IMG/VR virus record: IMGVR_UViG_3300035156_000369
Coordinates: 1 to 36,889 of that record
Origin: a virus
DNA length: 36,889 nucleotides
Reading direction: 5' to 3' (one strand)
Shown here: positions 20,396 to 36,048 of the stretch, in pieces
How positions within the stretch are numbered: position 1 is the stretch's first letter
Layout: each line of letters opens with the position of its first letter
Program-made: the position numbers and the translations under genes
The notes under the pieces: model-generated
The model's input: only the letters and a program-made list of their open reading frames with translations
Database searches by the model: none
What the model was told of the DNA's origin: nothing

Positions 20396-20821
20396 TCAGT
20401 CCTCTTCGCCATGGTGGCGTTTAATGGCTTTTGCGCCGCGGTCGATTCCGACGGCGACAAGCAGCACCGCGGCGAGCGCGGCAAATCCCAGCAAAATCAG
20501 GGCGGTTTGGACATTCAACTTTTGGCCTCTTTTAGTGGTTGCGCTGGGGCAACTTTTTCGGCGTTTCAATAGAGCAACAGCGACATACCCGAAGGAAGCG
20601 CCTCCTATGGCAGAGCAGATTTTCAGCGCATCCGGATCGCCGGTTTTATTCGGCTTTATAAATCGCTTTTTTTGCGCCGGATTGGCGTTTTCCAGCATTT
20701 CGATGCCGCTTGGCAATGCAGAAAAGGTGCGAAAACAGGCAGGTTTTGCGCTCGAAATGGCGCCTTGAATCGAGCGGTTTTGGCCGGAAATCGTGAAAAG
20801 TGACGGATGACTGTTAATCAT
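20396..20821 (-). CDS. Small putative membrane protein downstream of the recombinase
   Basis: This 142-residue ORF begins with an ATG that overlaps the recombinase stop as ATGA. It has two hydrophobic segments, about residues 71-90 (LKICSAIGGASFGYVAVALL) and 105-125 (ALILLGFAALAAVLLVAVGI), with a basic loop between them. The first 45 residues are unconvincing. A shorter product from a TTG at 20518 (40 residues, preceded by GAGG) containing only the second membrane segment is an alternative. The family is not recognised. Without this gene the 300 bases after the recombinase would be non-coding. Confidence 0.45.
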   Translation of the reverse strand: MINSHPSLFTISGQNRSIQGAISSAKPACFRTFSALPSGIEMLENANPAQKKRFIKPNKTGDPDALKICSAIGGASFGYVAVALLKRRKSCPSATTKRGQKLNVQTALILLGFAALAAVLLVAVGIDRGAKAIKRHHGEED

Positions 20822-21894
20822 TTGCATTTGCTGTGCTTTCCTGCTGCCGTTCCGATCTCTTCGCCAGTTTCGCGCCGGACGAATCCGATTACAGAGCCGA
20901 TGTGGTCTGACGCCCGGGCAGCCGTATCGAGGTTCTTCTCCAGGTATCCGCGCGTCGTCGTGAAACTCTTGTGACGCATCACCGCCTGGATGGTCTGGAT
21001 GGGCACGCCTTCCTCCGACAGCAGGGTGGCGAACGTCCCGCGCAGGCGGTGCGGCGTGATGCCCTTGGTCGAGCACTCGGCGTTTGCCCGGCGCATGGCG
21101 ACACGCGAAAAGCCGGACGTGAACTTGCGGCCATCGCTGCGGCAGGCGATCAAGCCATCAGCCTTGCGCAGTGGCCCCAGCTCAGCGACCAGCCAGGCCG
21201 GCATCGGGATCGGCTCGGCTTCGCGGCCCTTGGTCTCGCCCGGCGTGTAGGTGGCGCGCTGCCAGTCGATCCATTCCCAGCGCGCTGTGGCCGCTTCACT
21301 TTCGCGCAGGCCCAGGCCGAACATCAGGCGCACGCCGGTACCGACGCCGTGGTGCTTCTTCGATGCGCCGTCGATCGCGGTGAACCAGGTTTTGGCCACG
21401 TCGAGCGGCAGCACCGCGCGCGGGCGTTTTTGTACTTTGATCATGGCTACCTTCCAGGGGGATCGTGCGAGGATTTCGCGGTTGACTGCCCACAGCGTGA
21501 GCAGCTTGAGAATGCGCAGCCAGTGGTTGGCCGTGGCCGGCCTGCGGTCCTGCAGGTGTTCGTTGCGGGCCGCTTCCACCAGCTCGGTGTTGATGTCGCT
21601 GATCTTCAGGTCGGCCAGGTCGTACATGTGCAGGCGCCGGAACGATTCGATGCTGCTGATGTGCGACGTGCTCGATGTCGGCCGGTGCGCCACCAGCCAG
21701 GAGCCGACCAGTTCGTCCAGCGTCGGTACCGGCTCGCCACCGTTCGCCTCGATCACCGCTTTGTCGAACGCGGCCTGGGCCAAGGTCTCGGCGCGCGCGC
21801 GGTTGCGCAGGCGAGTGCTGCGCTGGGTGCGCCGGCCGGCGACCTGGAAGCGGAAGTGCCAGATTTGGCCCTTTTTGAAGATGTTCGCGCTCAT
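20818..21894 (-). CDS. Tyrosine recombinase inside the early operon
   Basis: The 358-residue protein has an N-terminal SAM-like DNA-binding region and a full catalytic domain: Arg197 (GLGLRESEAA), His282 and Arg285 (ITPHRLRGTFA), His308 (MRHKSFTTTRGY) and nucleophile Tyr317. All core residues are present, so it should be active. It is co-transcribed with replication genes (ATGA overlap with the gene upstream), not placed at a prophage end. A second recombinase (34662-35762) sits at the end. This one may resolve multimers or recombine an internal site rather than integrate; that is inference. The start at 21894 is preferred over a longer shadow extension. Confidence 0.85.
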   Translation of the reverse strand: MSANIFKKGQIWHFRFQVAGRRTQRSTRLRNRARAETLAQAAFDKAVIEANGGEPVPTLDELVGSWLVAHRPTSSTSHISSIESFRRLHMYDLADLKISDINTELVEAARNEHLQDRRPATANHWLRILKLLTLWAVNREILARSPWKVAMIKVQKRPRAVLPLDVAKTWFTAIDGASKKHHGVGTGVRLMFGLGLRESEAATARWEWIDWQRATYTPGETKGREAEPIPMPAWLVAELGPLRKADGLIACRSDGRKFTSGFSRVAMRRANAECSTKGITPHRLRGTFATLLSEEGVPIQTIQAVMRHKSFTTTRGYLEKNLDTAARASDHIGSVIGFVRRETGEEIGTAAGKHSKCK

Positions 21895-22133
21895 GCGGCT
21901 TCCACTTCTGCTACTTGGTGGCGAGCCACGAACTGAACGCGCGCCGCCAGCTGCTGCGAGCGGTGGTACTGCACACACGGGCGCGCGGTGGCGTGCACGA
22001 ACGGCTCGACCGGGCCGACTTCGCCATCGAAGCCATGGCAAGCGCCAATGCCGAGATCGGCTCGGGCAGGATCATCTTTCGTCGTGAAGTGCGCGCAAAA
22101 GCCGCAGGCGCGATACGTGCGGTCGACCTTCAT
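21891..22133 (-). CDS. Small Cys-containing (zinc-binding-like) phage protein
   Basis: The 80-residue protein has four spaced cysteines (Cys10, Cys13, Cys32, Cys53; start RTYRACGFCAHF), suggesting a metal-bound finger. The start at 22133 overlaps the P-like stop as ATGA, and its stop overlaps the recombinase start in the same way. Small Cys-rich proteins of this kind are frequent in the region after replication genes. The family and partner are unknown. Confidence 0.65.
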   Translation of the reverse strand: MKVDRTYRACGFCAHFTTKDDPARADLGIGACHGFDGEVGPVEPFVHATARPCVQYHRSQQLAARVQFVARHQVAEVEAA

Positions 22134-24921: not shown

Positions 24922-25034
24922 GCAGTGCTCCTGGTAGTGGGGTAATTCAGGCGTTCAAGGCGTTGATAGAAGGAATTTCATTTCCTAAATGCAACAGTAA
25001 GGACGTGCAAAAGCCGCCGGGGTCACAACGGCGT

Positions 25035-25268
25035 TTAAACGGGATCGGTCAGGTGAGGCTCGTTGCCCAGTTCAGGCTTGGGTGCAAATACATCCGGACG
25101 GGCCAGTCGGATGAACTTAAGTTGATGCTTAGGTACGCCGTTCCGTCGCCACTGCGACACCGCGGCTGCGGAGACGACGCACAGCTCGGCCGCCTTCGCA
25201 GTGCCGCCGAGCCTCTCGATTACATCGAGTGCTTCGGCATTCAGTGCTGGATCGTCGTTCATGGGCAT
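25035..25268 (-). CDS. Cro-like (YdaS-type) HTH repressor
   Basis: The 77-residue protein carries a helix-turn-helix: DVIERLGGTAKAAELCVVSAAAVSQWRRNGVPKHQLKFIRL, as in YdaS/Cro-type regulators. It is divergent from the CI-type repressor with three palindromic operators between them, the classic genetic switch. Either ATG (25268 or 25262) could start translation; GAG lies suitably before 25262. It is expressed from the promoter at 25292-25320 and heads the early operon containing replication genes. Confidence 0.8.
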   Translation of the reverse strand: MPMNDDPALNAEALDVIERLGGTAKAAELCVVSAAAVSQWRRNGVPKHQLKFIRLARPDVFAPKPELGNEPHLTDPV

Positions 25269-25291
25269 CTCGGGTTGGACTAGGTTTCCAG

Positions 25292-25320
25292 ATATTAAGG
25301 CAACTTAATTTATAAGTCAA
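25292..25320 (-). promoter_or_regulatory. Early rightward (PR-like) promoter of the cro operon
   Basis: On the minus strand TTGACT (25315-25320) and TAATAT (25292-25297) are separated by 17 bases, a near-ideal sigma70 promoter reading toward cro. Each box overlaps one of the palindromic operators. Confidence 0.8.
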
Positions 25321-25355
25321 GGCACCTTAACTTAAGTTTAGTTAAGCTAGCTAAA
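25295..25355. promoter_or_regulatory. Tripartite operator between cro and cI
   Basis: Three 14-base palindromes follow the pattern TTAAG-N4-CTTAA: 25295-25308 (perfect), 25317-25330 (TCAAG on one side) and 25342-25355 (CTAAA on one side). Spacings are 22 and 25 bases, about two helical turns. The first two cover the -10 and -35 of the cro promoter; the third reaches the cI start codon. The same palindrome recurs twice at 27385-27420. Confidence 0.8.
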
Positions 25356-26071
25356 TGGGAAATTTCAAATTGCTATCGGAACGACTAAAGTGGGCGGTGC
25401 AACGAAGGCTCGAGGCAGAGCCAACGATCACGCGCATCACAAAAGGAAAAATTGCACTGGAGGCTGGCGTTTCGCCGACGGCAGCTGGCTACTGGTTTGC
25501 TGATACGAATGGCATGCAGGCCCCCGCAGCACGCAGGCTAGGGGCATTCCTTGGCGTAGATCCTGTCTGGCTTGAAAAAGGAGAGGGCTCGCCAGAGATC
25601 GCGCCAGCAAAGGAGGATCTCGGATACCAGGCCCTCGAAGCAAGCGACCAGCAGTTCGTCCAGATACCGCTGGTTGAGCTCAAGCTGTCGGCGGGACTCT
25701 CCGGCTATCAGACCGCACCGCTCGGCGAAGGTGATTCGATACTCAATCTGCGCCAGGGCTGGATGCGGTCGAGACGGCTTAACCCGAAGAATCTTGTAGC
25801 CATCCAAGTCACAGGGGACAGTATGGAGAGGGCGCTACACGCGGGCGATATCGTAATTTTGGACACCTCCGATACTTCGCCGAAAGATGGTGAAGTTTAT
25901 GCTGTAAATTACGAGGGCCAGGCTGTGGTCAAGCGTCTAGAGCGGGATGCGGGCGACTGGTGGCTGACATCCGATAACGCGAGCCCTGGGCGACACGCCC
26001 GAAAGGTCTGTCGTGGTGATGACTGCATCATTGTGGGCCGCGTGGTGCGGAAAGAAAGTGACCGAATCTAA
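25355..26071 (+). CDS. CI/LexA-type prophage repressor (S24 peptidase)
   Basis: The 238-residue protein has an N-terminal DNA-binding region (about 10-70, with KGKIALEAGVSPTAAGYWF as HTH) and a C-terminal LexA-like domain. The self-cleavage site is likely Ala113-Gly114 (KLSAGLSG), the nucleophile Ser156 (TGDSMERA) and the general base Lys193 (AVVKRLE). It should hold the lysogenic state by binding the TTAAG-N4-CTTAA operators and be inactivated by RecA-stimulated self-cleavage after DNA damage. There is no Shine-Dalgarno before the ATG and the third operator overlaps it, so the mRNA may be nearly leaderless, as for lambda cI from PRM. Confidence 0.9.
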   Translation: MGNFKLLSERLKWAVQRRLEAEPTITRITKGKIALEAGVSPTAAGYWFADTNGMQAPAARRLGAFLGVDPVWLEKGEGSPEIAPAKEDLGYQALEASDQQFVQIPLVELKLSAGLSGYQTAPLGEGDSILNLRQGWMRSRRLNPKNLVAIQVTGDSMERALHAGDIVILDTSDTSPKDGEVYAVNYEGQAVVKRLERDAGDWWLTSDNASPGRHARKVCRGDDCIIVGRVVRKESDRI

Positions 26072-26317
26072 TTGAAAATATCCATCGCAGAGACACGTAT
26101 TGCACAAGGTAATTTGCTTATCGCTATCGTTGAGACGGAATCTGTCGGCCCGGCGGGTGATCTGATTCTTAAAAAACTAAATGCGTTTTATCCCCACCTT
26201 CCTGCCATGCTAATCAGCGTAAGCGATAATGGTTTTTCGGCGTACGCCCACTTTGAAACACATCGGCTGTTAGCAATGATTCAGCTGAAGGCGCTTGTTT
26301 TTCATCGATTGATTTGA
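26072..26317 (+). CDS. Small protein co-transcribed with the repressor
   Basis: The 81-residue protein starts at a TTG immediately after the repressor stop (TAATTG), the only start consistent with the N-terminus MKISIAETRIAQGNLLIAIVE. It is a mixed alpha/beta sequence with GPAGDLILKKLNAFYPHLPAMLISV and ends in a hydrophobic helix. I have an impression of similar small proteins after repressor genes in other prophages, but no function is known to me. Co-transcription suggests a role in lysogeny. Confidence 0.65.
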   Translation: MKISIAETRIAQGNLLIAIVETESVGPAGDLILKKLNAFYPHLPAMLISVSDNGFSAYAHFETHRLLAMIQLKALVFHRLI

Positions 26318-26355
26318 ATTGCCCACCTGACGTGAAACTGCCTTTTTAAGGGAAT

Positions 26356-26646
26356 ATGAAATTAATAACAGTCTTGCTTAGCTTTGGACTAGCAGCGTGC
26401 GCTTCAACATCAGGCGTTTATAAATCTGGCCTAGATACTTTCACTGTCGCAGCCACGGCCTCTCCCGGTGCTGGTGGCAGCGCAAAGGCGAAGGGATCAG
26501 CCTACTCCGCGGCGGAGAAGGAATGTTCGCAACATAACGGCGCTGTGGAAGTCGTATCCGAGAAAGTATCCGCTCCAACTTGGACCGATGGAATGCATAC
26601 GATTGATTTGGTATTCCGATGCCGTGCAACTGGGAGCGCCGCGTGA
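26356..26646 (+). CDS. Prophage lipoprotein 1 (lysogeny-expressed)
   Basis: The 96-residue protein starts MKLITVLLSFGLAAC, a lipoprotein signal with lipobox LAAC and Cys15 as the lipidated residue. The mature part is about 80 residues with two more cysteines (CSQHNG and FRC near the end) and no membrane span. AAGGGA precedes the ATG. It resembles the next protein in size, signal and the C-terminal VxFxC ending, indicating duplication. Expression with the repressor suggests a lysogenic-conversion role, such as blocking a phage receptor; this is inference. Confidence 0.75.
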   Translation: MKLITVLLSFGLAACASTSGVYKSGLDTFTVAATASPGAGGSAKAKGSAYSAAEKECSQHNGAVEVVSEKVSAPTWTDGMHTIDLVFRCRATGSAA

Positions 26647-26921
26647 TGGTGCGTTGCGGGCTCATGCTAGCATTGATTCTATCTGGCTGCGCAACTCAAA
26701 CTGGAATAGTCTCAACCGGAGCTAACTCTTATATGCTTATGAAGCAGGGTAATGGCTTTTGGACATCGCCAAGTCTATTGGTGGCAGATGTTACCCGTCA
26801 GGCAAGCGAATATTGTTCGGCTAGTGGAAAGTCGATTTCCATAGTTTCAACAAAAGAAAAGCCGGTCGGTATTCGCCCTGGCGACTATCCTGAAGGTGAA
26901 GTGCGGTTTAACTGTAATTAA
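26646..26921 (+). CDS. Prophage lipoprotein 2, paralogue of lipoprotein 1
   Basis: The 91-residue protein starts at 26646 (MVRCGLMLALILSGCATQTG), overlapping the stop of the first lipoprotein by one base (TGATG). It has lipobox LSGC (Cys15). The mature part has YCSASGKSISIVSTKEKPVG and ends EGEVRFNCN, parallel to ECSQHNGAVEVVSEKVSAP and DLVFRC in lipoprotein 1, so the Cys pair and spacing are conserved. Base composition is AT-richer than the virion genes, as expected for a moron. Confidence 0.75.
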   Translation: MVRCGLMLALILSGCATQTGIVSTGANSYMLMKQGNGFWTSPSLLVADVTRQASEYCSASGKSISIVSTKEKPVGIRPGDYPEGEVRFNCN

Positions 26922-26964
26922 GTTCCGCGAGTTTGGCACAGTAATATTACATTAAAGGGGTGCG

Positions 26965-27282
26965 ATGTCTATCGAAGACGATGTGGTCCAGCTACAGCGC
27001 GAACTGAATGAGCTTAGGCAAAATTTCCGTGAGTACGGCACAATTCACCAATATGATCTCGGTCAGGCCCAAGCTTTTCGCGCTGCAATTACCGCTATTA
27101 TTGCAGCCCATCCTGATCCGGATTTGTTGGCGGTTCATCTGGACCAACACCTTTCTCGCCCGGAGGCCAGTGAGGTTTTTCAGTCGAACAACGAGGAACG
27201 CCTACAAGGTTTGCAAGCCGCACAAGCCTATCTCCTTGAAGTAGTCGGTATCGCTCAAAGGCTGCATCGTACGCCTCGTTAG
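26965..27282 (+). CDS. Small helical protein at the end of the immunity operon
   Basis: The 105-residue protein has an N-terminal coiled coil (DDVVQLQRELNELRQNFREYG) and a C-terminal helical part, no signal and no membrane segment. AAAGGGG lies just before the ATG. It is followed by an intrinsic terminator at 27309, which closes the repressor-lipoprotein transcript. The function is not recognised. Confidence 0.65.
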   Translation: MSIEDDVVQLQRELNELRQNFREYGTIHQYDLGQAQAFRAAITAIIAAHPDPDLLAVHLDQHLSRPEASEVFQSNNEERLQGLQAAQAYLLEVVGIAQRLHRTPR

Positions 27283-27308
27283 CGTCTAGTCCCATCTCCA
27301 CTCTCCAC

Positions 27309-27332
27309 GCCCCGCCAGCCGGGGCTTTTTTT
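27309..27332 (+). terminator. Intrinsic terminator of the immunity operon
   Basis: GCCCCG and CGGGGC form a 6-bp stem around a CCAGC loop, followed by seven T. It separates the immunity operon from the left early promoter. Confidence 0.85.
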
Positions 27333-27384
27333 CGCCCCGACGATCGGTGCGCGAAAAAATCTTAACATTTTTTTGGCGGCAAGT

Positions 27385-27423
27385 TTAAGGTAGCTTGACA
27401 TTAAAATTAAGCCAGCTTAAGAT
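27385..27423 (+). promoter_or_regulatory. Left early promoter with two repressor operators (PL/OL-like)
   Basis: TTGACA (27395-27400), a 17-base spacer and TAAGAT (27418-27423) form a strong sigma70 promoter. Two operators of the same palindrome as at the cro-cI switch overlap it: TTAAG-GTAG-CTTGA (27385-27398) and TTAAG-CCAG-CTTAA (27407-27420), 22 bases apart. Their placement over -35 and -10 is the same as at the cro promoter, so repressor binding should block the whole left operon in the lysogen. Confidence 0.85.
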
Positions 27424-27465
27424 GACTTATCGAAACGCGCCGACCAGCGCACACCGGAGACCACG

Positions 27466-27588
27466 ATGCGCTTCCTTCTGTTTTACAAAATTGAACTCAC
27501 GGACCGTTTCCCGGTCACCACCGCAATCTGCGGAACCTGCGTGACCTTTGCGCTAGCCACCTGCTTGCATGCGATGGGCTGGCTGTAA
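27466..27588 (+). CDS. Very small membrane protein, first gene of the left operon
   Basis: The 40-residue protein (MRFLLFYKIELTDRF, then TTAICGTCVTFALATCLHAMGW) has one membrane-like segment at about residues 18-38 with three cysteines. GGAG sits six bases before the ATG, an ideal ribosome site, and the stop overlaps the next start by one base (TAATG). The family is unknown. Confidence 0.6.
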   Translation: MRFLLFYKIELTDRFPVTTAICGTCVTFALATCLHAMGWL

Positions 27589-27689
27589 TGCGCACCGTCT
27601 ACAACCTTTTCCGCTTCTACCGCCGCCGTGGTGCCACACCGATCGGCGCGGTGCGGACGGCACTGCGCGTCTACCACCACGGCTTTTGA
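27588..27689 (+). CDS. Very small Arg-rich protein
   Basis: The 33-residue protein (MRTVYNLFRFYRRRGATPIG onward) is strongly basic and starts within the stop of the preceding gene (TAATG). It has a character seen in small early proteins of Burkholderiales prophages, but I know no function. The overlap supports translation. Confidence 0.5.
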   Translation: MRTVYNLFRFYRRRGATPIGAVRTALRVYHHGF

Positions 27690-27690
27690 A

Positions 27691-27879
27691 ATGGCTCGCA
27701 TCGCGCCAGACCGCGCCGCCCTCGAAGTCGCCCACCGGCTGCTCATGACGGCAGCGCCGCTTGACGCGATGCTGAAAAACGCCACGCTGAAAATCGTGCT
27801 CGAAATCGTCGCCAGCCGCCACATGGCGCGCCGCGCCCAGGTCGACGTGAAAAAGCTCCAGGCGAACGACCGCGACTAG
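27691..27879 (+). CDS. Small helical protein of the left operon
   Basis: The 62-residue protein starts at 27691 (MARIAPDRAALEVAHRLL), one base after the previous stop; a longer in-frame ORF is a shadow. It is entirely helical with a basic C-terminus (ARRAQVDVKKLQANDRD) and no membrane segment. The family is not recognised. Confidence 0.55.
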   Translation: MARIAPDRAALEVAHRLLMTAAPLDAMLKNATLKIVLEIVASRHMARRAQVDVKKLQANDRD

Positions 27880-27927
27880 CCGGCCGCCGCCGCACCAGAT
27901 TCTTTTACCCACCACCAGAGGAACAAC

Positions 27928-28470
27928 ATGTTCACTGAATTACATGCGATGGCGAAGGCCGCCATGCTTTTGATTACCGCTACCGCCGAGGGCGACCAGC
28001 TGCGCATCAGCATCACGCCGTCGTACCCCGACGGCAAAGTCCCGGCCGGCGCCACCGCGCTGCGACCGCTGGCCGTGGTCGGCACGCCGGACGAACTGAA
28101 CGAGGACTTCGCCGCAGTGCTCAACCTATGGCAAGCGCCGAAGCTGTCGGTGCTCGAGCAGGCTCAGGCCCAGGTCGCCGAGCTGGACGACGATGCCGAC
28201 ACGCAGAAGGCAACCGGCAAAGCCGTCACCAAGGCGTCCGATGCGAAGTCGAAGACAAAGTCCACGCGCAAATCGGCACCTGCAGCGCCTGCCGACACCA
28301 GCGCGCAGCCAGGCGATGAGAAGAGTGGCGAAGCTGCCGTGCCGGTTGACGTGCACACCCTCGACATTTTCACGCAGCCGGCAAGCGTTGACGATGCTGG
28401 CGCACAGCCGAGCGGTGAGGGCGACGAAGCCGCCGCGCCGGTCGACGTGCCCGCGATTGACATTTTCTAA
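27928..28470 (+). CDS. PRTRC system protein E
   Basis: The 180-residue protein opens with the PRTRC-E conserved region (MFTELHAMAKAAMLLITATA, then GDQLRISITP and a PLAVVGTPDELNEDF block, to about residue 70). A low-complexity Lys/Ala/Pro/Asp tail follows. In the tail a segment of about 25 residues is duplicated, each copy ending in PVDVxxxDIF (139-148 and 171-180, the very C-terminus). AGAGGAAC precedes the ATG. It opens the PRTRC run and is only 11 bases from protein C. Its biochemical role is unknown. Confidence 0.85.
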   Translation: MFTELHAMAKAAMLLITATAEGDQLRISITPSYPDGKVPAGATALRPLAVVGTPDELNEDFAAVLNLWQAPKLSVLEQAQAQVAELDDDADTQKATGKAVTKASDAKSKTKSTRKSAPAAPADTSAQPGDEKSGEAAVPVDVHTLDIFTQPASVDDAGAQPSGEGDEAAAPVDVPAIDIF

Positions 28471-28481
28471 CGGAGCCGGCC

Positions 28482-28685
28482 ATGCACACCACCGCCCTCA
28501 TCCGTGAATTCCGCTATAACGCCGTGCGCCTGGCCGACCCGCTGCCGACCATGACGCTGCTGCAGGTGCGCGACTTCTATTCGAACGTCTACCCCGAACT
28601 GACCAGCGCCGATATCGAAGGCCCTGAGCAGGCCGGCAATAAACAGATTTTCACCTTCCGGCGCGCCGTCGGCACGAAGGGCTGA
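28482..28685 (+). CDS. PRTRC system protein C, ubiquitin-like
   Basis: The 67-residue protein matches PRTRC-C, grouped with prokaryotic ubiquitin-like (Prok_Ub) proteins as I recall the family. Features are REFRYNAVRLADPLPTMTLLQVRDFYSNVYPEL and the C-terminus IFTFRRAVGTKG. The chain ends in Gly67, as needed for activation by an E1-type enzyme without processing. The size and alternation of strands and one helix fit a small beta-grasp fold. GGAG precedes the ATG. It lies in one operon with E2-like, JAMM and ThiF-like genes, so it is the likely modifier. Confidence 0.8.
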   Translation: MHTTALIREFRYNAVRLADPLPTMTLLQVRDFYSNVYPELTSADIEGPEQAGNKQIFTFRRAVGTKG

Positions 28686-28687
28686 TC

Positions 28688-28888
28688 ATGCTGACCAAGG
28701 CAATCGCAATTGCTCGCCTGCGCGCCACCGGCTCCCTGGGTAGCGACGAGATGACAGTGAAAATCATCCCGGCAGCCGCAGGCAAAGAACCGCTGGCGCG
28801 CTTGGTGAGTAATGTGCTGCTGTCGAATCCGAAATCGCGCGGCATTCGCATGGTCGCGTCAGGTTCCAACCAGGCGGTGCTGCCGTGA
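28688..28888 (+). CDS. Small unassigned protein within the PRTRC cassette
   Basis: The 66-residue protein (MLTKAIAIARLRATGSLGSD) starts two bases after protein C and its stop overlaps the start of protein F (TGATG). It has a mixed alpha/beta composition and no motif I recognise. Its tight placement suggests it works with or is translated with the cassette. I cannot say whether it is usual in PRTRC cassettes. Confidence 0.6.
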   Translation: MLTKAIAIARLRATGSLGSDEMTVKIIPAAAGKEPLARLVSNVLLSNPKSRGIRMVASGSNQAVLP

Positions 28889-29943
28889 TGGCCGCCACCA
28901 GCTGCGCGCTGGCCATCCCGCACCTATCGCCGGCCGTGCCGCTGAAGTATCTGATCAGTGGCGCGGATGACCTGGTGGCGCCGCTGACGATCGCACTGCT
29001 CGAAGCGGACCTGATTACCAATGCCATGCTGCGCCACCCAAAGAACGCCACGCTGGCGCAAACCCTCGGCGGCGTGAACGCGCGCGACCTGGCAATGCGC
29101 GCGCTGTCGAAGTGGTGGGACGCAACCATCAAGGCAAATTCGTGCAAGTTCTTTCGATGGCAACTGCACGTGCAGCGCCTGGACGAGGATGAAATAGGCC
29201 CTGAGTACGACGGCAACGCCTGGTTCATTTTTACCCGGATGCACGACGACATTCCGCGCTTTGCCCTGCAGCGCCGCATCACGCAACTGGAGGATACCCT
29301 TGAGGGCTTCGGTCAGACCGTGCTGGCGGTGCTGAAGGACGCAACGCTTCGTTTGCCCGATTCGTTCACGCCGTGGGTTGCCGTGGATATGGCCGACTAC
29401 CTGCACTGGTCGAACTCGGAGACGGATGAGGAGCTGATCGAGGACTGCCGTGAAATGAATGGCTACGCCACCGCCCAGGAAGTCATCGACAACAATTCCG
29501 TAATGACCCGTGCGATGTTCTTCGCCGATGTGCCGCGCTGGGTGACAGCGCCAGTGCGCGTCGTGTCGCGGGATGAAATTTGCGCTGCCGACCTGGGGCT
29601 GTTCGGCCAGCGCGTTGTCGATGCTTGCGATGCCATCGCCCAGCTGGTGAATGACCCCGGCTTTACGTTGACACCGTCGGACAAGGGCGTCTACCGATGC
29701 GGCCAGGACACGACGGACGGCGCCATGGTTCTGTTGTGGCACGAGGGTGACGTGCTGGGACAGGCAATCGACGATGTCATCAACGATCTGTTCAATGCCG
29801 GCATGGCCACCGAATTCATCGACGCCAATCCCGTGCCGATGACCGCCGCCGGCATCCGCCACTTCCAGGACCTGACCGAGCAGACGATGAAGCTTGCGGT
29901 CCTGACCGAAAAACTGATCCTGCTGATTGGAGACCCGCTGTGA
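28888..29943 (+). CDS. PRTRC system protein F
   Basis: The 351-residue protein starts at the ATG at 28888 (MAATSCALAIPHLSPAVPLKYL); a GTG one codon upstream is possible. It matches the PRTRC-F layout with AMRALSKWWDATIKANSCKFFRWQLHV, NAWFIFTRMHDDIP, RFALQRRITQLEDTLEGFGQTVL and a long helical C-terminus. No catalytic motif is visible. It lies between the modifier gene and the E2-like gene and overlaps the latter by four bases (GTGA). Its role is unknown; a substrate-binding or scaffold role is only speculation. Confidence 0.75.
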   Translation: MAATSCALAIPHLSPAVPLKYLISGADDLVAPLTIALLEADLITNAMLRHPKNATLAQTLGGVNARDLAMRALSKWWDATIKANSCKFFRWQLHVQRLDEDEIGPEYDGNAWFIFTRMHDDIPRFALQRRITQLEDTLEGFGQTVLAVLKDATLRLPDSFTPWVAVDMADYLHWSNSETDEELIEDCREMNGYATAQEVIDNNSVMTRAMFFADVPRWVTAPVRVVSRDEICAADLGLFGQRVVDACDAIAQLVNDPGFTLTPSDKGVYRCGQDTTDGAMVLLWHEGDVLGQAIDDVINDLFNAGMATEFIDANPVPMTAAGIRHFQDLTEQTMKLAVLTEKLILLIGDPL

Positions 29944-30674
29944 GCCAACTTGTCAACGTTATCAGCGCGGGCGATCGCACCTTGCGCCTGGTCGGCGCGA
30001 TGCTGATGTACGACTCCGGCCAGGGCGACGTGTATGCCACGACGCACCAGATCGACGTCGACGCCGCCCATCCGGACCGGCGCGTTATCGGCCCAGGCGT
30101 CGCGCTCACGAAGGATGCGCTGGCCAAATTCGGCGCATCGGTCAGCGTCGCCACCGCGTACGCCGGCTTCGTGCCGTCGAACATGCTCTACACCTCACCG
30201 AACCTGCTCGCCTGGTGGGTGCCCGCAGCCATGCGCAACACGTGGTTCAAATGCACCGCTGACACGCTCGGCGAAGTGAGCGGCCCGGCAGCGCACCCGG
30301 CGCTCGTGTTCGTCGCCACTAGCGCGAACTGGTATGTGTTCGCGCTGCGCACATCCCAGCGCCCGGCGCCGGCCGCGCCGCTGTTTCATTCGCCACACAT
30401 GAACGTGTGGGACGGCGGCCGGATATGCACGGGCAACGTCGAACTGCCTGAGCATCTGTCGGCCGACACGCTGACCGCATATGAACAGGCCTTCTTCCGT
30501 AGCCGTTTCACGCATCCGAACCGGCAGGAGGCTGTGAAAAGCAAAGGCGGCATGTATGGCCTGTGGCGCGACCAGCTGGCCAAGCCGGACGCCGCCGCAA
30601 TGACCCGCGCGCTCAAGCCCGCAAAAGAAACGCTGCAACAAGCCATCGAACGTATTTCCGACAAAACCCGCTAA
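29940..30674 (+). CDS. PRTRC system protein B, E2-like
   Basis: The 244-residue protein starts with GTG (reads as Met-Ser-Gln-Leu) in the GTGA overlap with protein F. It matches PRTRC-B, which has been related to prokaryotic E2 (UBC-like) proteins. The block PLFHSPHMNVWDGGRICTGNV (residues 147-167) lines up by eye with the E2 HPN-V...G-x-[IV]-C loop, making Cys163 the candidate thioester cysteine. A central beta region (ALVFVATSANWYVFALR) precedes it and a helical C-terminus follows, as in E2 folds. It would receive the modifier from the ThiF-like enzyme. Confidence 0.8.
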   Translation: MSQLVNVISAGDRTLRLVGAMLMYDSGQGDVYATTHQIDVDAAHPDRRVIGPGVALTKDALAKFGASVSVATAYAGFVPSNMLYTSPNLLAWWVPAAMRNTWFKCTADTLGEVSGPAAHPALVFVATSANWYVFALRTSQRPAPAAPLFHSPHMNVWDGGRICTGNVELPEHLSADTLTAYEQAFFRSRFTHPNRQEAVKSKGGMYGLWRDQLAKPDAAAMTRALKPAKETLQQAIERISDKTR

Positions 30675-30686
30675 TCAAGGACCACC

Positions 30687-31463
30687 ATGAACGCCCAAGA
30701 AATCCAAATGCAATTCACCGAGCTGCTCGATATCACCCGCTCGTCGTTTGAAGCTTTCCTGACGACCACCGAGACCGTGATGCGCGCTGTGCGCCCTTGC
30801 GTGCTGGCCGTGGATGAAGACGCCGTCGACGAGGACAAACTCGCGCTCGACCTGGCCACCTACAACGCCGCGCCGATCGTGGCCGTGCCGGTGCATTGCG
30901 AATTCGCGCCGCTGATCGAGAACGGCCACCGTTTCCTGCTGGCCCAGGGCGGCCTGTACCTGGAAGTGCGCAGGCCGTGGCTGCACATCATCCACCCGAT
31001 TGCCGAGCCGTCGAGCACGGTGCGCGTGCCGTACGGCGCGGTGGCAAACAAGATGGAATTCGGCTTCGGGCGGCTGGGCAGCGCGCTGACGCAGATGAAG
31101 GAGTTCGCCGCGCACGCCATGGTGGAGTCGCCGATCGAGGCCGCGGCCAGCCTGATCTGGAACCACGTCACCAGCGAGTGGGCGCTGAAATACCCGAAAA
31201 CGATTGGCGAGGCCACCGGCGGCAGCATCCAGTTCGAGCAGGTTGAGCTGGCCGAGGATGAAAGCCTGGTGGTCGACCTGCACAGCCACGGCGCGCACGG
31301 CGCGTTCTTCAGCGGTACCGATGACGCCGACGATGCCGGCAGCGTCAAGATTTGCGGCGTGTACGGTGATCTCGACAAGGGCGTGCAGACCGCGGTCTTC
31401 CGGCTGTGCGTGCTGGGCGTGTACCTGCCGATCGCCGTCCCGGCCGACAAGATTTTCGGCTGA
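30687..31463 (+). CDS. PRTRC system protein A, JAMM/JAB metallopeptidase
   Basis: The 258-residue protein matches PRTRC-A. The C-terminal half carries a complete JAMM zinc motif: LVVDLHSHGAHGAFFSGTDD, with His199, His201, Ser209 and Asp212 in the spacing HxH-x7-S-x2-D. The conserved upstream Glu is probably Glu151 or a nearby residue in MVESPIEAAASLIWN. JAMM enzymes remove ubiquitin-like proteins from targets or trim their C-termini. Protein C already ends in Gly, so removal from targets is more likely than maturation. It lies 12 bases after protein B. Confidence 0.85.
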   Translation: MNAQEIQMQFTELLDITRSSFEAFLTTTETVMRAVRPCVLAVDEDAVDEDKLALDLATYNAAPIVAVPVHCEFAPLIENGHRFLLAQGGLYLEVRRPWLHIIHPIAEPSSTVRVPYGAVANKMEFGFGRLGSALTQMKEFAAHAMVESPIEAAASLIWNHVTSEWALKYPKTIGEATGGSIQFEQVELAEDESLVVDLHSHGAHGAFFSGTDDADDAGSVKICGVYGDLDKGVQTAVFRLCVLGVYLPIAVPADKIFG

Positions 31464-31482
31464 GCCAGGCGCGAGGAATCCC

Positions 31483-32244
31483 ATGCCACATTACACACCA
31501 TCGAACCTGCTGAACGGCCGCGTGTCGATTGCCCTGGCCGGCTGCGGCGGCAACGGGTCGCAGATGCTGACGGGCCTGGCCCGGCTGAACCACGCACTGG
31601 TCTCGCTCGGCCACCCCGGCCTGGCCGTGCGCGCCTTCGATCCAGATACGGTCAGCGAGGCGAACATGGGCCGGCAGCTGTTCGGGCGGTTCGACGTCGG
31701 CAGCAGCAAGGCGATTGTCCTGGTCAACCGCCTGAATGCTTTCTTCGGGCTCGATTGGGAGGCGCATTTTGGCCGCTACGACCGCAACGACACGAACCGG
31801 CCGGACATCCTGATCGTGTGCGTCGATAGTGCGAAGGCGCGCCACCAGATCAGCCGCCTTTCGTCGCAGCCGGAATACATCATGGACATGGGAAACCGGG
31901 CAGCCGACGGCCAGGTGATCTTCGGCCAGCCCGATTGGCCGTCGCGCAAGGGTCAGTCTGACCGGCCCGGACACGTGCGGCTGCCAAGCCCGTACCGCGT
32001 GCTGCCCGAACTGGTCGACGTAACGGTGCCGGAGGATGACACGCCCAGCTGCGGCCTGGCCGAAGCGCTCGAGCGCCAGGAGCTGTTCGTCAACCAGGCG
32101 GTGGTGACGCCGGCGCTGAACATCCTGTGGGATTTCTTCCGCCGCGGTGAGTTGAGCTGGCATGGCGCGTTCGTGAACCTGCGCACCGGGACGATGCGGC
32201 CGCTGCAGGTGCCGGCGCCAGCGGCGGCGGAAGCTGCACAGTAA
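31483..32244 (+). CDS. PRTRC system ThiF-family (E1-like) protein
   Basis: The 253-residue protein starts at 31483 (MPHYTPSNLLNGRVSIALAG). It has the E1/ThiF adenylation motifs: the Gly-rich loop GCGGNGSQ (20-27), DPDTVSEANMGRQLF (53-67, with Asp, Asn and Arg-Gln for ATP) and LIVCVDSAKAR (110-120). A candidate active Cys is Cys190 in DDTPSCGLAEALERQELFVN. It would activate the C-terminal Gly of protein C with ATP and pass it to protein B. It is the last recognised gene of the cassette. The 20-base gap to protein A contains GAGGAAT as ribosome site. Confidence 0.88.
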   Translation: MPHYTPSNLLNGRVSIALAGCGGNGSQMLTGLARLNHALVSLGHPGLAVRAFDPDTVSEANMGRQLFGRFDVGSSKAIVLVNRLNAFFGLDWEAHFGRYDRNDTNRPDILIVCVDSAKARHQISRLSSQPEYIMDMGNRAADGQVIFGQPDWPSRKGQSDRPGHVRLPSPYRVLPELVDVTVPEDDTPSCGLAEALERQELFVNQAVVTPALNILWDFFRRGELSWHGAFVNLRTGTMRPLQVPAPAAAEAAQ

Positions 32245-32246
32245 GC

Positions 32247-32579
32247 ATGGCAACGTATTCCGTCCGCTGCAAGGACAGCGCCTGCCGGCACCGCCGGGTG
32301 CTGAAGCGGCACCCCGACAGCTACGTCGTCGTGCCGAAGTGCGCGATCTGCAGCCAGCGGAAGGGCTGGCGCATCGAGCAGCGCGGATACAACCGCCGCG
32401 ACCTGTGCAGCTGCGGCAAGTCGCCGCTGTACCCGCACCGCGTCGGCAAGTACAAGTTTTGTGATCACCACCCGCGCGGCTTCTACAACCAGGCGAAGCG
32501 CCAGGGCGTGGCCGATGCCGATATTCCGCTCGAAGTCCTGGGCAAACCGATGAAAGAAACCGATGACTGCCCTTTCTGA
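32247..32579 (+). CDS. Zinc-ribbon-type Cys-rich protein
   Basis: The 110-residue protein has seven cysteines in pairs suited to metal binding: Cys8/Cys13, Cys32/Cys35 (KCAICSQRKGW), Cys54/Cys56 (LCSCGK) and Cys72 with neighbouring His (YKFCDHHPRG). The basic composition fits nucleic-acid binding. The ATG is three bases after the ThiF stop. It is followed by the HNH gene (17-base overlap). It resembles Cys-rich companions of HNH proteins in other phages. No named family is recognised. Confidence 0.65.
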   Translation: MATYSVRCKDSACRHRRVLKRHPDSYVVVPKCAICSQRKGWRIEQRGYNRRDLCSCGKSPLYPHRVGKYKFCDHHPRGFYNQAKRQGVADADIPLEVLGKPMKETDDCPF

Positions 32580-32937
32580 TCCGCTGCCGCTGGTTGGCGG
32601 TTTCCACGTGGGTCCGCTGTTCGAGATCCGTAAGCAGCGGCCACTGATGCGGCCGAAGGGAAAAGAGGGCGTCGTGCACCGCGCGCAAACGGTTCGCGCC
32701 ACGCCGCCCTGGGCAGTCGGTTGCCCGCGAGTGCGCGCGATCTATGCCGAGGCGCGGCGCCGCACGCTGGAAACAGGTGAGCTATGGGTGGTCGACCACA
32801 TCGTGCCGAAGATTGGCCGCACCGTGTGCGGCTTGCACGTGTGGTGGAACTTGCGGGTGATCCACTGGCGCGAGAACGCCGTCAAAGGCGCGGCCACCTG
32901 GCCGGGCATGCCGTTCGAACAGATGGACCTAATTTAA
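32563..32937 (+). CDS. HNH-type endonuclease-like protein
   Basis: The 124-residue protein has ELWVVDHIVPKIGRTVCGLHVWWNLRVIHWRENAVKG (about residues 73-108), the DH-P...CGLH...NL...N-xxK pattern of small HNH nucleases. The His in VDH would be the general base and the later Asn/His and Lys complete the fold. The N-terminal 60 residues are basic. It overlaps the Cys-rich gene upstream and the next gene by one base (TAATG). A role in DNA processing is likely, with unknown target. Confidence 0.75.
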   Translation: MTALSDPLPLVGGFHVGPLFEIRKQRPLMRPKGKEGVVHRAQTVRATPPWAVGCPRVRAIYAEARRRTLETGELWVVDHIVPKIGRTVCGLHVWWNLRVIHWRENAVKGAATWPGMPFEQMDLI

Positions 32938-33824
32938 TGATGACCGTTTCTAATAACTGGGAAATTACAATGACCGAACAAAACAAGCCAGGTGTGCTGA
33001 CCCCCGAGGAAGCCGCTTTCGCACTGGACGTGTTCCAGCAGCCAGCCTATGCCCTGTTCCCGATCGTCGGTGCCAACGTCATGCCGGAACAGCTGCGCCT
33101 GGTGCGCCCCATTGGCCACGGCAAGTGGGTGCCGCAAGCGCCGCTGCGTGCGCTGCTGATGCAGGCATTGACTGCGCCGCGTCATGTGACGATGCTGGAC
33201 TGCCCGCTGTGCGACCAGGCCAGCTGCTTTACCTGCGAAGAGTGCGACGGTCGCGGCAAGATCAATGTGAGCCCGCCGGCACCTACTCCTAAAAATATCA
33301 GCACCTGGCGCGAGCGCATCGGGCAGCCGGCGGATTTCCCGCTGCACGTGCCCACGGACGTCGAGCGCGCGATGGTGGCAGAAATCGCCGATTTACGGGC
33401 CACCGCTGTTGCAGGAAGCGAGCCGACCGAGATTTCAGCGCAGCTGCGCGACTTCGCCGGCAACCCGGGTTACAGCCATAACGACTACGCCGACGTGATG
33501 CGCCGTGCTGCCGATGAGTGCGACCGTTTTTATAACGGCATGCTGGCGTGGAAGAAAACGGCTCACAAGAAGGACGCTGACGCGCAGAGCGAACGCATGG
33601 GCCGCGTGAACGACCGCATCAAATCTCGCGCTGCTGTTGCGCTGGAAGACCTGATCATGCAGCACCGCATCGCCATTGCGCCAGAATATGAAGGTGGGTT
33701 TCACGCCTACATTTACCGCGACCAGGACGCGGCCCTCAACGCCGGATATGGCGCAACGCCGCGCGAGGCCGTCGACATCGCCCTTGCCGCCCCACTGACT
33801 GGCAAGACAGGCGGTGCAGCATGA
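32937..33824 (+). CDS. Hypothetical phage protein with DnaJ-like Cys motif
   Basis: The 295-residue protein starts at 32937 in a TAATG overlap; an ATG at 32970 (MTEQNKPGVLTPEEAAFALD) after GGGA is an equally good start. Residues about 93-112 (CPLCDQASCFTCEECDGRGK) form a zinc-finger-like Cys cluster similar to the C-x2-C-x-G-x-G repeats of DnaJ. The end (EYEGGFHAYIYRDQDAALNAGYGATPREAVDIALAA) is a block found in other phage early proteins. It is probably a composite early protein; function unknown. Confidence 0.6.
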   Translation: MMTVSNNWEITMTEQNKPGVLTPEEAAFALDVFQQPAYALFPIVGANVMPEQLRLVRPIGHGKWVPQAPLRALLMQALTAPRHVTMLDCPLCDQASCFTCEECDGRGKINVSPPAPTPKNISTWRERIGQPADFPLHVPTDVERAMVAEIADLRATAVAGSEPTEISAQLRDFAGNPGYSHNDYADVMRRAADECDRFYNGMLAWKKTAHKKDADAQSERMGRVNDRIKSRAAVALEDLIMQHRIAIAPEYEGGFHAYIYRDQDAALNAGYGATPREAVDIALAAPLTGKTGGAA

Positions 33825-34432
33825 AACGAACGGACGACCAAATACGCTGCCAGTTCTTCAAGGAGCTCAGCGCGGGCGAGCGCCTGAAGGTGCTGCGCGT
33901 CTTCCTCAACATCCCGGATGCCGCCGCTGCTGAAGTCACCAGCCACAGCATCGAGGCGAAATTGCTGTCGACCATATTGCGGCCGGCGCCGGCGGTTGAT
34001 GCACAGCCGGCCGCCGCGGTCCCTGAGCGGATGGCGCCAGTCCAGGGATACAAGGCTGGAATTCCTTGGTCCCTGCATCTTGAAGCGTACGACGCCTACT
34101 CGAAGAAATGGGCGCCACAGCAGGCTTTGATCGAGGGCGGCTGCCGCGGCGGCTTCGGTACCGGAGAGCTGGACGAATTTATTCCAGGCTGGCGCGAAAA
34201 GGCAGCTGAAATCGGACGACTTAGAGCCCGTATTGCCACGTTGGAAGCAGCGCAAGTTAGCGTTGTGCCGGACGCAACTGAGGATCGCGCGCGCCTGGAC
34301 TGTCTGTATCAAACCATGTGCGTCAGGCCGTTCATCGCTCCTATCGCCAGCAAGGAACGATGGATCGCGTCGATCGACGCCGCGGTGGCGGCGATAGCCG
34401 GCGTTGCTGCTGCGCCTGGCGGTGAAACATGA
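33821..34432 (+). CDS. Hypothetical early phage protein
   Basis: The 203-residue protein starts at an ATGA overlap with the previous gene. Residues about 80-145 (GIPWSLHLEAYDAYSKKWAP, then GCRGGFGTGELDEFIPGWRE and a short coiled coil AEIGRLRARIATLEAA) look like the C-terminal part of variable early phage proteins such as the Ea22 type. No enzymatic motif, membrane segment or signal is seen. It overlaps the DUF4224 gene by four bases. Confidence 0.6.
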   Translation: MKRTDDQIRCQFFKELSAGERLKVLRVFLNIPDAAAAEVTSHSIEAKLLSTILRPAPAVDAQPAAAVPERMAPVQGYKAGIPWSLHLEAYDAYSKKWAPQQALIEGGCRGGFGTGELDEFIPGWREKAAEIGRLRARIATLEAAQVSVVPDATEDRARLDCLYQTMCVRPFIAPIASKERWIASIDAAVAAIAGVAAAPGGET

Positions 34433-34665
34433 CCCGCTATCTGACTGCAGTCGAGCTGGCCGAGCTGATCGGCTGCTCGCCGCACAGCTTTTCCTGCATG
34501 CGGCGATACCTGACCAGGAACAATTGGCCGTTCGAACCGAACCTGCGCGGCTTTCCGCAGGTGAGCAGGGATTACCATGACGGCCGCATGGCGGGCAGTG
34601 TGCTCGCCGGCGCCACGATAGAGCAGGGCGACGAGCCCGATTTCACTATGTTTGAGGCAGCATGA
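34429..34665 (+). CDS. DUF4224-like protein, putative excisionase
   Basis: The 78-residue protein has the DUF4224 pattern: LTAVELAELIGCSPHSFSCMRRYLTRNNWPFEPNLRGFPQVSRDYHDGRM, a winged-helix-like element typical of genes directly upstream of phage integrases. It overlaps the integrase start by four bases (ATGA). Such proteins are suspected to act as excisionases or recombination directionality factors. The C-terminal 25 residues are acidic. Confidence 0.75.
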   Translation: MTRYLTAVELAELIGCSPHSFSCMRRYLTRNNWPFEPNLRGFPQVSRDYHDGRMAGSVLAGATIEQGDEPDFTMFEAA

Positions 34666-35762
34666 TAGGTAGAAGAAAATCCCCCGATGGCATGCCCTTC
34701 CGCTTGTACGAGCGCATCGGCAAGTTCAAGGTCAGCTATGGCTACAAGCTGCCTGACGGGACATGGTCGTTTCGCCTGACCGCCAGCATCCTCGACAAGG
34801 CGGCAACCGCACGGATCCGCGCGGAGGCGATCGACCGTGCCAACGTGCTGAACGGTGCGCCGCTCGACGGCGGCGAAACTGAGGCGCTATTCCGGCGTTA
34901 TTTCGCATGGCAACTGGGCCTGCCGCTGGAGAGCGAGGACCGGAAGGCCGCCAGCACGCTGAAGGAGAACGAGAAATACGAGGCGCCGCGGATCCTGCGC
35001 ACGTTCGGCAAGGTGCGCCCGGCGGCGATCAAGCCGGTCCACATCTATAAATATCTGGATGGCCGGGCCGCCGAGGGCGCGCCGGCGAAGGCGAACAAGG
35101 AAATCGCCCTGTTGTCGGCCGTGCTGGAATTCGGCCGGCGCAAAGGCGTGCTCGAGCTGAACCCCTGCCGCGACATCAAATACAACAAGACCCGCCCGGA
35201 CACTCGCTACGTCACGCCGGCCGAGCTCGACCTGGTGATGCGCGTGGCGCGCGAGCGCGGCGGCATGTACCTGGTCAATGCGCTGTGCCTGCGCGCGGCA
35301 TACCTGACAGTCAGCCGGCCGGACGAGATGCGGCACGTGATGCGCCAGTCGATCACGGCCCTGGGAATGGAGATGGAAGTTGGCAAGCGGAAGCGAGGCC
35401 GCGCGGTGAAGTTCAAGCTCATCGAATGGTCGACCGGACTACGGTCTGTCATCGATGAGGCGCTGACCCTGCAGCGGACGACAAGCTTGTACGTGTTTGG
35501 CAACAGCGATGGGCAGCCATACACCACCAGTGGCTTCAACACAAACCTGCGCCGGCTCATGGTGCACACCGCGAAGAAGGCCGTGGAAGAGGGCGTCGAG
35601 TTCACGCGGTTTACGCTAAAAGACATGCGGCCGGCGGCGGTAACGGACAGGGTAGACGATGGGGATGAGACGATTACGAACGCTACCGGGCACAGCAGCG
35701 ATCGCATGGTGAAACAGGTGTATGACCGGCGAAAAACTAAGGCAGCACGCGCGACAGAATAA
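34662..35762 (+). CDS. Prophage integrase, tyrosine recombinase
   Basis: The 366-residue protein has an N-terminal arm-binding-type region (FRLYERIGKFKVSYGYKLPDGTW), a SAM-like core-binding domain and a catalytic domain: Arg219 (VSRPDEMRH), Arg323 in FTLKDMRPAAVTD (with Lys320 where box II usually has His), His344 (TGHSSDRM) and nucleophile Tyr354 (QVYDRRK). It is the last gene before composition shifts, and its 3' end faces the presumed attachment site, the normal arrangement. It is co-transcribed with the putative excisionase under the repressor-controlled left promoter. Confidence 0.88.
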   Translation: MIGRRKSPDGMPFRLYERIGKFKVSYGYKLPDGTWSFRLTASILDKAATARIRAEAIDRANVLNGAPLDGGETEALFRRYFAWQLGLPLESEDRKAASTLKENEKYEAPRILRTFGKVRPAAIKPVHIYKYLDGRAAEGAPAKANKEIALLSAVLEFGRRKGVLELNPCRDIKYNKTRPDTRYVTPAELDLVMRVARERGGMYLVNALCLRAAYLTVSRPDEMRHVMRQSITALGMEMEVGKRKRGRAVKFKLIEWSTGLRSVIDEALTLQRTTSLYVFGNSDGQPYTTSGFNTNLRRLMVHTAKKAVEEGVEFTRFTLKDMRPAAVTDRVDDGDETITNATGHSSDRMVKQVYDRRKTKAARATE

Positions 35763-35868
35763 ACTCATAGCAAAACAACGTTAAAGATGATCCACATCAA
35801 ACGTTGAGTCAAGTAGCGATTGATACTTCAAAAAAGAATGTTCTATAGTATTTAAGGATGAAGAAAAC
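35763..35868. other. Probable right prophage junction / attachment region
   Basis: This AT-rich stretch begins right after the integrase and separates GC-rich phage genes from lower-GC genes. AACGTT occurs twice here (35778-35783 and 35799-35804 by my count), possible arm sites. No tRNA end is recognisable. The left junction is outside the window, so the core repeat cannot be determined. Confidence 0.4.
35820..35849 (+). promoter_or_regulatory. Sigma70-type promoter for the small Pro-rich ORF
   Basis: TTGATA (35820-35825), an 18-base spacer and TATAGT (35844-35849) make a good promoter. The start codon at 35869 follows 20 bases after the -10, with AAGGA at 35854-35858 between them. Confidence 0.55.
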
Positions 35869-36048
35869 ATGGAAGACCTAAAAAAGTCTGCCGATATGCT
35901 GCCCATCGGGAAAGAAAAAAGCCCACAGGCACATGTATATGTGGAAGTTAACTTAATAATGGACAGGAGGCCGCACTATGGACCACCTTCGCCGATAGAA
36001 CCAATAAGTAATCATGTTGGCCCCCCGTCTCCGATAGTTCCCCAATGA
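35869..36048 (+). CDS. Small Pro-rich protein convergent with a trypsin-like protease
   Basis: The 59-residue ORF reads MEDLKKSADMLPIGKEKSPQ, then AHVYVEVNLIMDRRPHYGPP and a Pro-rich end in which a GPPSPI motif occurs twice (about residues 38-43 and 51-56). It has its own promoter and a ribosome-site-like AAGGA 10 bases upstream. The stop is two bases from the stop of the convergent protease gene, so the pair share a tail-to-tail end. No signal peptide is seen. The family is not recognised. Confidence 0.5.
   Translation: MEDLKKSADMLPIGKEKSPQAHVYVEVNLIMDRRPHYGPPSPIEPISNHVGPPSPIVPQ

Follow-up and report, generated by a model that had tools for sequence, protein, structure and literature searches.

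The stretch of DNA analysed here, a linear IMG/VR virus record of 36,889 nucleotides (IMGVR_UViG_3300035156_000369, called the window below), carries a cassette of PRTRC genes that would supply a ubiquitin-like modifier, C, together with an E1-like protein, an E2-like protein and a JAMM peptidase. The cassette is a ParB-less phage variant of PRTRC, not the standard PRTRC system of plasmids and integrative and conjugative elements (ICEs), and it is a module of a whole phage clade, not a peculiarity of the phage in the window. The PRTRC family is known already; the phage variant is new. Judged from its sequence, the control region of the window follows the OR/OL logic of phage lambda, from which expression of the operon would follow. 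We hold it probable, with real room for doubt, that a PRTRC-type ubiquitin-like conjugation pathway is deployed here in early lytic growth; the conjugation, its targets and its benefit are what we infer.

Identification of the cassette

All six proteins exceed the curated NCBIfam cut-offs for PRTRC (E-values: E 3.5e-18, C 4e-29, F 1.8e-23, B 9.2e-60, A 8.4e-60, ThiF 4.4e-90) and stand in the order E-C-F-B-A-ThiF, as in plasmids. Pfam concurs (Prok_Ub, alpha-hel2, Prok-E2_D, DUF2016 with Prok-JAB, and ThiF), with E falling under Pfam's own cut-off. The original prediction, made from the letters alone, had named these six genes as PRTRC genes lying in this order in one operon, and both the identity and the order hold; the profile searches that it proposed gave matches in the right families and not in unrelated ones. 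Its coordinates were right apart from the start of ThiF, corrected to 31483, and that of F, which is most likely ATG 28888, overlapping the stop of x66. This x66, a seventh gene between C and F, had been overlooked. The genes are as follows:

27928..28470 (+): PRTRC E (TIGR03741, 65.5 bits, cut-off 37.95)
28482..28685 (+): PRTRC C, ubiquitin-like modifier, stopping exactly at ...RRAVGTKG (TIGR03738 4e-29; Prok_Ub 7.1e-24)
28688..28888 (+): x66, the unnamed seventh gene, 66 residues ending ...AVLP, without family match and present in relatives
28888..29943 (+): PRTRC F, alpha-hel2 (TIGR03742, 83 bits)
29940..30674 (+): PRTRC B, E2-like, Prok-E2_D (TIGR03737 9.2e-60)
30687..31463 (+): PRTRC A, JAMM/JAB peptidase with N-terminal DUF2016 (TIGR03735 8.4e-60)
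31483..32244 (+): PRTRC ThiF, E1-like (TIGR03736 4.4e-90)

The PRTRC ParB model TIGR03734 has no match in the window, and because ParB is one of the named features of PRTRC we file the cassette as a ParB-less phage variant. No match to the protein D model TIGR03739 was found in the window or in 8 phages, in a search that lacked a positive control, since the control search gave nothing anywhere; D is not annotated in the five plasmid PRTRC operons that we viewed. Neither the six proteins nor x66 match PHROGs below an E-value of 0.05.

Active sites and selection

In alignments of 29-33 diverse sequences, plasmid ones as well as phage, the active-site residues are invariant: in ThiF the GxGGxG motif, D53/D55, N61, R64, K76, D115 and C190 (29 sequences), in B Cys163 and His192 (33 sequences), and in A E151, H199-S-H201, S209 and D212 (29 sequences), which give the JAMM motif E-HxH-S-D. 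A profile of ThiF, compared with PDB sequences, finds eukaryotic ubiquitin and NEDD8 E1s closest (7e-10), ahead of ThiF and MoeB. The median ratio of non-synonymous to synonymous substitution rates (dN/dS), taken over 18-19 pairs, is 0.07 for C, 0.09 for ThiF, 0.12 for B, 0.15 for F, 0.16 for A, 0.26 for E and 0.28 for x66, and all seven cassette genes are therefore under purifying selection.

Distribution of the phage-type cassette

A scan with the ThiF protein shows that 57 IMG/VR contigs carry the phage-type cassette, with E-C-F-B-A-ThiF kept in order on nearly all of them, truncated contigs aside. Bacterial genomes hold 18 phage-type loci, mostly in Burkholderiales, and the isolated Burkholderia phage BgVeeders33 (OK665841) has a complete cassette, whose genes are annotated as hypothetical plus one 'dinucleotide-utilizing enzyme'; the search for the same operon elsewhere, proposed at the outset, was thus productive. 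The genera named for this order are Janthinobacterium, Duganella, Massilia, Paraburkholderia, Trinickia, Caballeronia, Burkholderia and Cupriavidus. Beyond the 18 loci the identity of ThiF falls to 48% or less, which marks the plasmid/ICE type, and a phage-type ThiF is present in 9 of 399 sampled genomes of one family. In a tree of B, A and ThiF, 68 phage-type cassettes form one clade with support 1.0, apart from the plasmid/ICE cassettes. Nearly all of the latter have ParB, mostly 1.2-2.6 kb before E, and none of the phage-type loci has ParB upstream of the cassette. One phage subgroup alone (L037, L039 and L043) has a small ParB-like gene behind ThiF (L037, 10767-11567), a distant relative of PRTRC ParB. 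Distant ThiF-like proteins also occur in the large phages (187-217 kb) D69, D181 and D148 of Vibrio and KLEB27-3 of Bacillus.

The genes identified in the window encode terminase, portal, major head protein, head closure, DNA-ejection protein, tailspike and endolysin as well as O- and P-like replication proteins, excisionase and integrase, and because of this set of head, tail, lysis, replication and integration genes the window is a near-complete P22-like temperate podovirus. Tail-sheath genes are found in 9 of 28 cassette phages; these relatives are sheathed and the window is not, being a podovirus, so that the cassette is spread over myoviruses as well as non-myoviruses. The podovirus capsid family phrog_1357 had no match in the 28 relatives, in a search whose control was equally silent, and megablast of the window against phages returned no match.

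Whatever the type of phage, the place of the cassette is constant. The six PRTRC proteins sit between the CI-like repressor (25355-26071) and the integrase (34662-35762), and the same position in dozens of phages rules out that the cassette is a separate element inserted in the prophage; this conserved position, together with the CI-type operators described below for 14 of 27 phages, indicates that the segment is not a stray insert. Phages without PRTRC that have a related integrase (74-92% identical), several of them also with a related CI, hold other modules in this interval: ParB-like with DUF2303 and/or DNA methyltransferase genes (L147, L149), a large ParB with a VapE-like gene (L153), a YqaJ exonuclease (L148) or a reverse transcriptase (L154, 8297-9625, RVT_1 2e-21; integrase 74% identical). 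The likeness drawn earlier to the region where lambda has its recombination and takeover genes is fair in this respect.

Control region

The features ahead of the cassette are as follows:

25035..25268 (-): Cro-like (YdaS-type) repressor, an open reading frame placed opposite CI, first gene of the right operon
25295..25355: putative OR-like operator cluster, TTAAGNNNNCTTAA-type palindromes at 25295, 25317, 25332 and 25342 (pattern search and shuffles)
25355..26071 (+): CI-like repressor with S24 peptidase domain (Pfam Peptidase_S24 1.5e-21)
27309..27332 (+): predicted intrinsic terminator, GCCCCGCCAGCCGGGGC followed by seven T, closing the CI transcript just before PL
27385..27430: putative OL-like operator cluster, palindromes of the same type at 27385, 27407 (perfect) and 27417
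27395..27423 (+): PL-like promoter TTGACA-N17-TAAGAT, under the OL-like operators and 505 nucleotides upstream of E

With at most two mismatches allowed, the palindrome TTAAGNNNNCTTAA occurs 10 times in the window, where 3.1 occurrences would be expected, and 7 of the 10 fall in two clusters, one at CI/Cro (25295-25355) and one over the PL-like promoter (27385-27430). The OR-like cluster overlaps a PR-like promoter (25320-25292, -) directed at Cro, and cro homologues lie at the equivalent position in relatives. The PL-like site matches the promoter pattern at 10 of 12 positions, one of two joint best sites in 25000-36000, and the first major genes behind it are those of the PRTRC cassette. The repressor-controlled early promoter of the original prediction is thus supported by the sequence. 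Of the 27 phages whose CI could be identified, 14 have palindromes upstream of CI that recur at least twice in both the CI/Cro and the PL regions, with operator sequences that vary from phage to phage; none of 162 mononucleotide shuffles, a mild control for this test over the 27 phages, reached the threshold score. Operators are therefore common to the CI/Cro region and the left-operon promoter, as in lambda-like regulation of PL. Because CI-type operators cover the promoter and a terminator closes the CI transcript, the cassette should be off in the lysogen.

Modifier C and x66

The C protein of the window is one of a minority already ending at the GTKG glycine. GTKG is present in all 75 phage-type C proteins, only 5 of which stop exactly there, whereas among plasmid/ICE C proteins it is present in 58 of 63, 55 of them stopping there. 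Past the glycine, phage C proteins continue into x66 (18 of 56 loci) or into unrelated domains of about 60-100 residues, which are probably helical; a few carry just 1-7 further residues. In each of the 56 phage loci that allowed a search for it, x66 is present, and it is a separate gene wherever another domain is fused to C (examples of x66 are 28688-28888 in the window, 6394-6591 in L062, and those after C in L083, L110 and L128). The AlphaFold2 models were built from the window and phage rows, and in that of a C-x66 fusion a beta-grasp fold (beta-beta-alpha-beta-beta) precedes a helical part; at residues 64-68, where GTKG forms the junction, the confidence is very low. The extended phage C looks like a precursor that the JAMM protein would cut.

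The x66 proteins of relatives have no Pfam match; the two phage subfamilies are homologous (hhalign 95%, 2e-8). Many plasmid/ICE loci also have a small open reading frame between C and F, for which there is no family model, and it overlaps the annotated start of F, a start that was probably called too early. Homology between the phage and plasmid small proteins is unsupported (hhalign probability below 1%), though position, size and LP-rich end agree.

Proposed mechanism and alternatives

On induction or in early infection, with CI off PL, the operon would be expressed. ThiF would adenylate the C-terminal glycine of C (GTKG) and then hold C as a thioester on Cys190, from which C would pass to Cys163 of B; B, aided by E, F and x66, would put C on a target protein, and A, the JAMM peptidase, would take it off again. 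In relatives where C runs beyond GTKG, A would cut the precursor after that glycine. E may steer the machinery through its low-complexity tail and C-terminal D-hydrophobic-aromatic peptide. The protein consists of a conserved N-terminal part of about 105 residues, the low-complexity tail and a conserved C-terminal peptide (...VPAIDIF in the window), and 61 of 70 phage E proteins end in D-[LIVM]-aromatic/hydrophobic, an ending found in 76 of the 11,673 open reading frames of at least 100 residues at all loci, phage E proteins included; plasmid E proteins have PASLW/PATLF-like ends. The phage tip is likely a docking tip and, by analogy, is similar to the tips with which proteins such as SSB bind their partners. 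Besides this tip, many E tails (phages L020-L051, for example L023) carry DPRQTxIPG or DPRQMRIDD, which resemble clamp-binding peptides.

The pathway most likely serves to take over the host early or to protect the replication of phage DNA, purposes that we prefer to counter-defence or defence, although sequence cannot separate them. The fuller proposal, to which we give somewhat less than an even chance, is that the phage clade runs its own tagging pathway in lytic takeover and makes the modifier as an extended precursor, as eukaryotic ubiquitin genes do, with a JAMM cut after the invariant GTKG freeing, besides the tag, another small protein (x66 or the helical domain).

Several observations weigh against early conjugation by the cassette. 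For this cassette and, in the literature searched, for any PRTRC system there is no known transcript, conjugate or phenotype. PL and its operators in the window are patterns in the DNA, and 13 of the 27 phages have no clear operator shared between CI/Cro and PL. Profiles of B and A match no solved E2 or JAMM structure among PDB sequences, so that their roles rest on Pfam, NCBIfam and the conserved residues. The model of F, with a predicted local distance difference test (pLDDT) score of 88.7, has no PDB fold match (E<1), and that of the C-x66 fusion is mediocre (pLDDT 70), its fold matches, several of them to beta-grasp domains, being insignificant.

If the cassette does conjugate, it might do so in the struggle between phage and host. 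Bil is an anti-phage ubiquitin-like system, and prophage left arms often bear defence genes. A prophage-borne defence in which conjugation shields the lysogen from other phages, like Bil or the Cap2/Cap3 proteins of type II cyclic-oligonucleotide-based anti-phage signalling systems (CBASS), would also agree with the anti-phage role of the better-studied bacterial ubiquitin-like systems (e.g. PMC10097602) and with the fact that ThiF weakly matches the E1-E2 and BilD models of PADLOC. We nevertheless think it improbable, given a promoter under CI-type operators and beyond the terminator of the CI transcript, five remaining proteins that match no PADLOC model, and a cassette position that is constant in different phage types, unlike that of scattered defence cargo. 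The opposite role, counter-defence, is a special case of early lytic conjugation and somewhat less unlikely, though still doubtful: either host immune proteins would receive the modifier, or the JAMM protein would remove modifiers from the CBASS or Bil conjugates of the host. Anti-defence genes lie in early-expressed regions, the JAMM site is conserved and, on plasmids, N-6 DNA methylase and DUF932 genes are found near the cassette, but stripping alone would not require E1, E2 and modifier to be under equally strong constraint, and no host target is known.

Other alternatives do without a role in takeover or defence. PRTRC has been called a partition function on plasmids (PMC7466150) and ParB heads nearly all plasmid/ICE cassettes, so the phage version could be a partition or stability system serving an episomal or replicative stage; with an integrase and excisionase in the phage, and no ParB in phage-type cassettes save the distant gene behind ThiF in L037, L039 and L043, we regard this as quite unlikely. 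The homology of the E1-like protein to ThiF/MoeB raises the question whether C is a ThiS/MoaD-like sulphur carrier and not a conjugated tag, yet the E2-like and JAMM partners have conserved active sites, rhodanese and cofactor genes are absent and the closest solved relatives are ubiquitin/NEDD8 E1s, which makes sulphur transfer very improbable; roles in thiamine or molybdenum cofactor synthesis were dropped for want of partner genes. Hardly credible, finally, is the view that the cassette is plasmid cargo in decay that does nothing for the phage. Phage cassettes, which form a branch separate from the plasmid/ICE ones, may be descended from them, but dN/dS values of 0.07-0.28 over seven genes largely refute decay, and the active sites are invariant and the order intact in nearly all phage loci.

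Going by the papers found, PRTRC has had no demonstrated function since its first description. A CI-controlled cassette in temperate phages, one of them isolated, offers tractable genetics, with a switch that can be induced, a cassette that can be deleted and plaques to score. If conjugation by the cassette is true, ubiquitin-like tagging is used by phages and not in bacterial defence alone, and the phage modifiers would provide an example, among prokaryotes, of a precursor that a JAMM protease processes. Trypsin would cut a tag ending in ..GTK|G down to one glycine (+57 Da), a mass identical to that of carbamidomethylation, and routine proteomics may for this reason have missed the tag.

Neighbouring genes

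The left arm continues beyond the cassette with these genes:

34429..34665 (+): excisionase (phrog_4764 9.8e-12)
34662..35762 (+): tyrosine integrase, closing the left arm (Pfam Phage_integrase 1.4e-7)

Besides this integrase, the right operon has a second tyrosine integrase (20818-22041, -, phrog_1 6e-45). Two small lipoprotein-like genes (26356-26921) lie downstream of CI and before the terminator, and may be surface genes expressed in the lysogen or serve superinfection exclusion. Just after ThiF comes a Cys-rich protein of 110 residues (32247-32579, phrog_17384), a homologue of which lies just before E in many relatives.

Comparison with known systems

The gene set of the window is that of operon type 6d of Iyer, Burroughs and Aravind (2006, PMC1779556), described there as a ubiquitin-like protein, an N-extended JAB, an E1-like protein, an E2-like protein with a downstream His and an alpha-helical protein; Cys163/His192 of B, DUF2016-JAB and alpha-hel2 fit this description. 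In the sections consulted, type 6d is listed from bacteria, and phages are named just for the unrelated TAPI/TAPK pair of lambda tails. The set was later modelled as PRTRC, and the PRTRC papers found deal with plasmids and ICEs and present it as a partition function (PMC7466150, PMC3826726), in line with the earlier statement that PRTRC is usually discussed for such elements; no mention of PRTRC in phages was found in the open-licence papers searched. The 'PRTRC' of Rhizobium tropici papers appears to be the plasmid name pRtrCIAT899 and not this system.

With the plasmid/ICE cassettes (ParB-E-C-F-B-A-ThiF; TIGR03734-TIGR03742), for example those of Cupriavidus metallidurans pMOL28 and Polaromonas pPNAP01, the phage type shares the six families and their order, the active-site residues, GTKG and the small C-F reading frame with its LP-rich end. 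It differs in lacking ParB, in a ThiF at most 48% identical, in forming its own clade, in lying behind phage operators, in the D-hydrophobic-aromatic tips of E (PASLW/PATLF in plasmids) and in a C that usually extends past GTKG. Type II CBASS (Cap2/Cap3) and Bil have the same E1, E2 and JAMM logic but are defence systems with fused E2-E1 or their own ubiquitin-like proteins, and the cassette approaches their defining proteins only in the weak resemblance of ThiF. The isolated phage BgVeeders33 has the complete E-C-x66-F-B-A-ThiF with a ThiF 58% identical to that of the window, but it is a myovirus with a tail sheath and its C has a helical extension.

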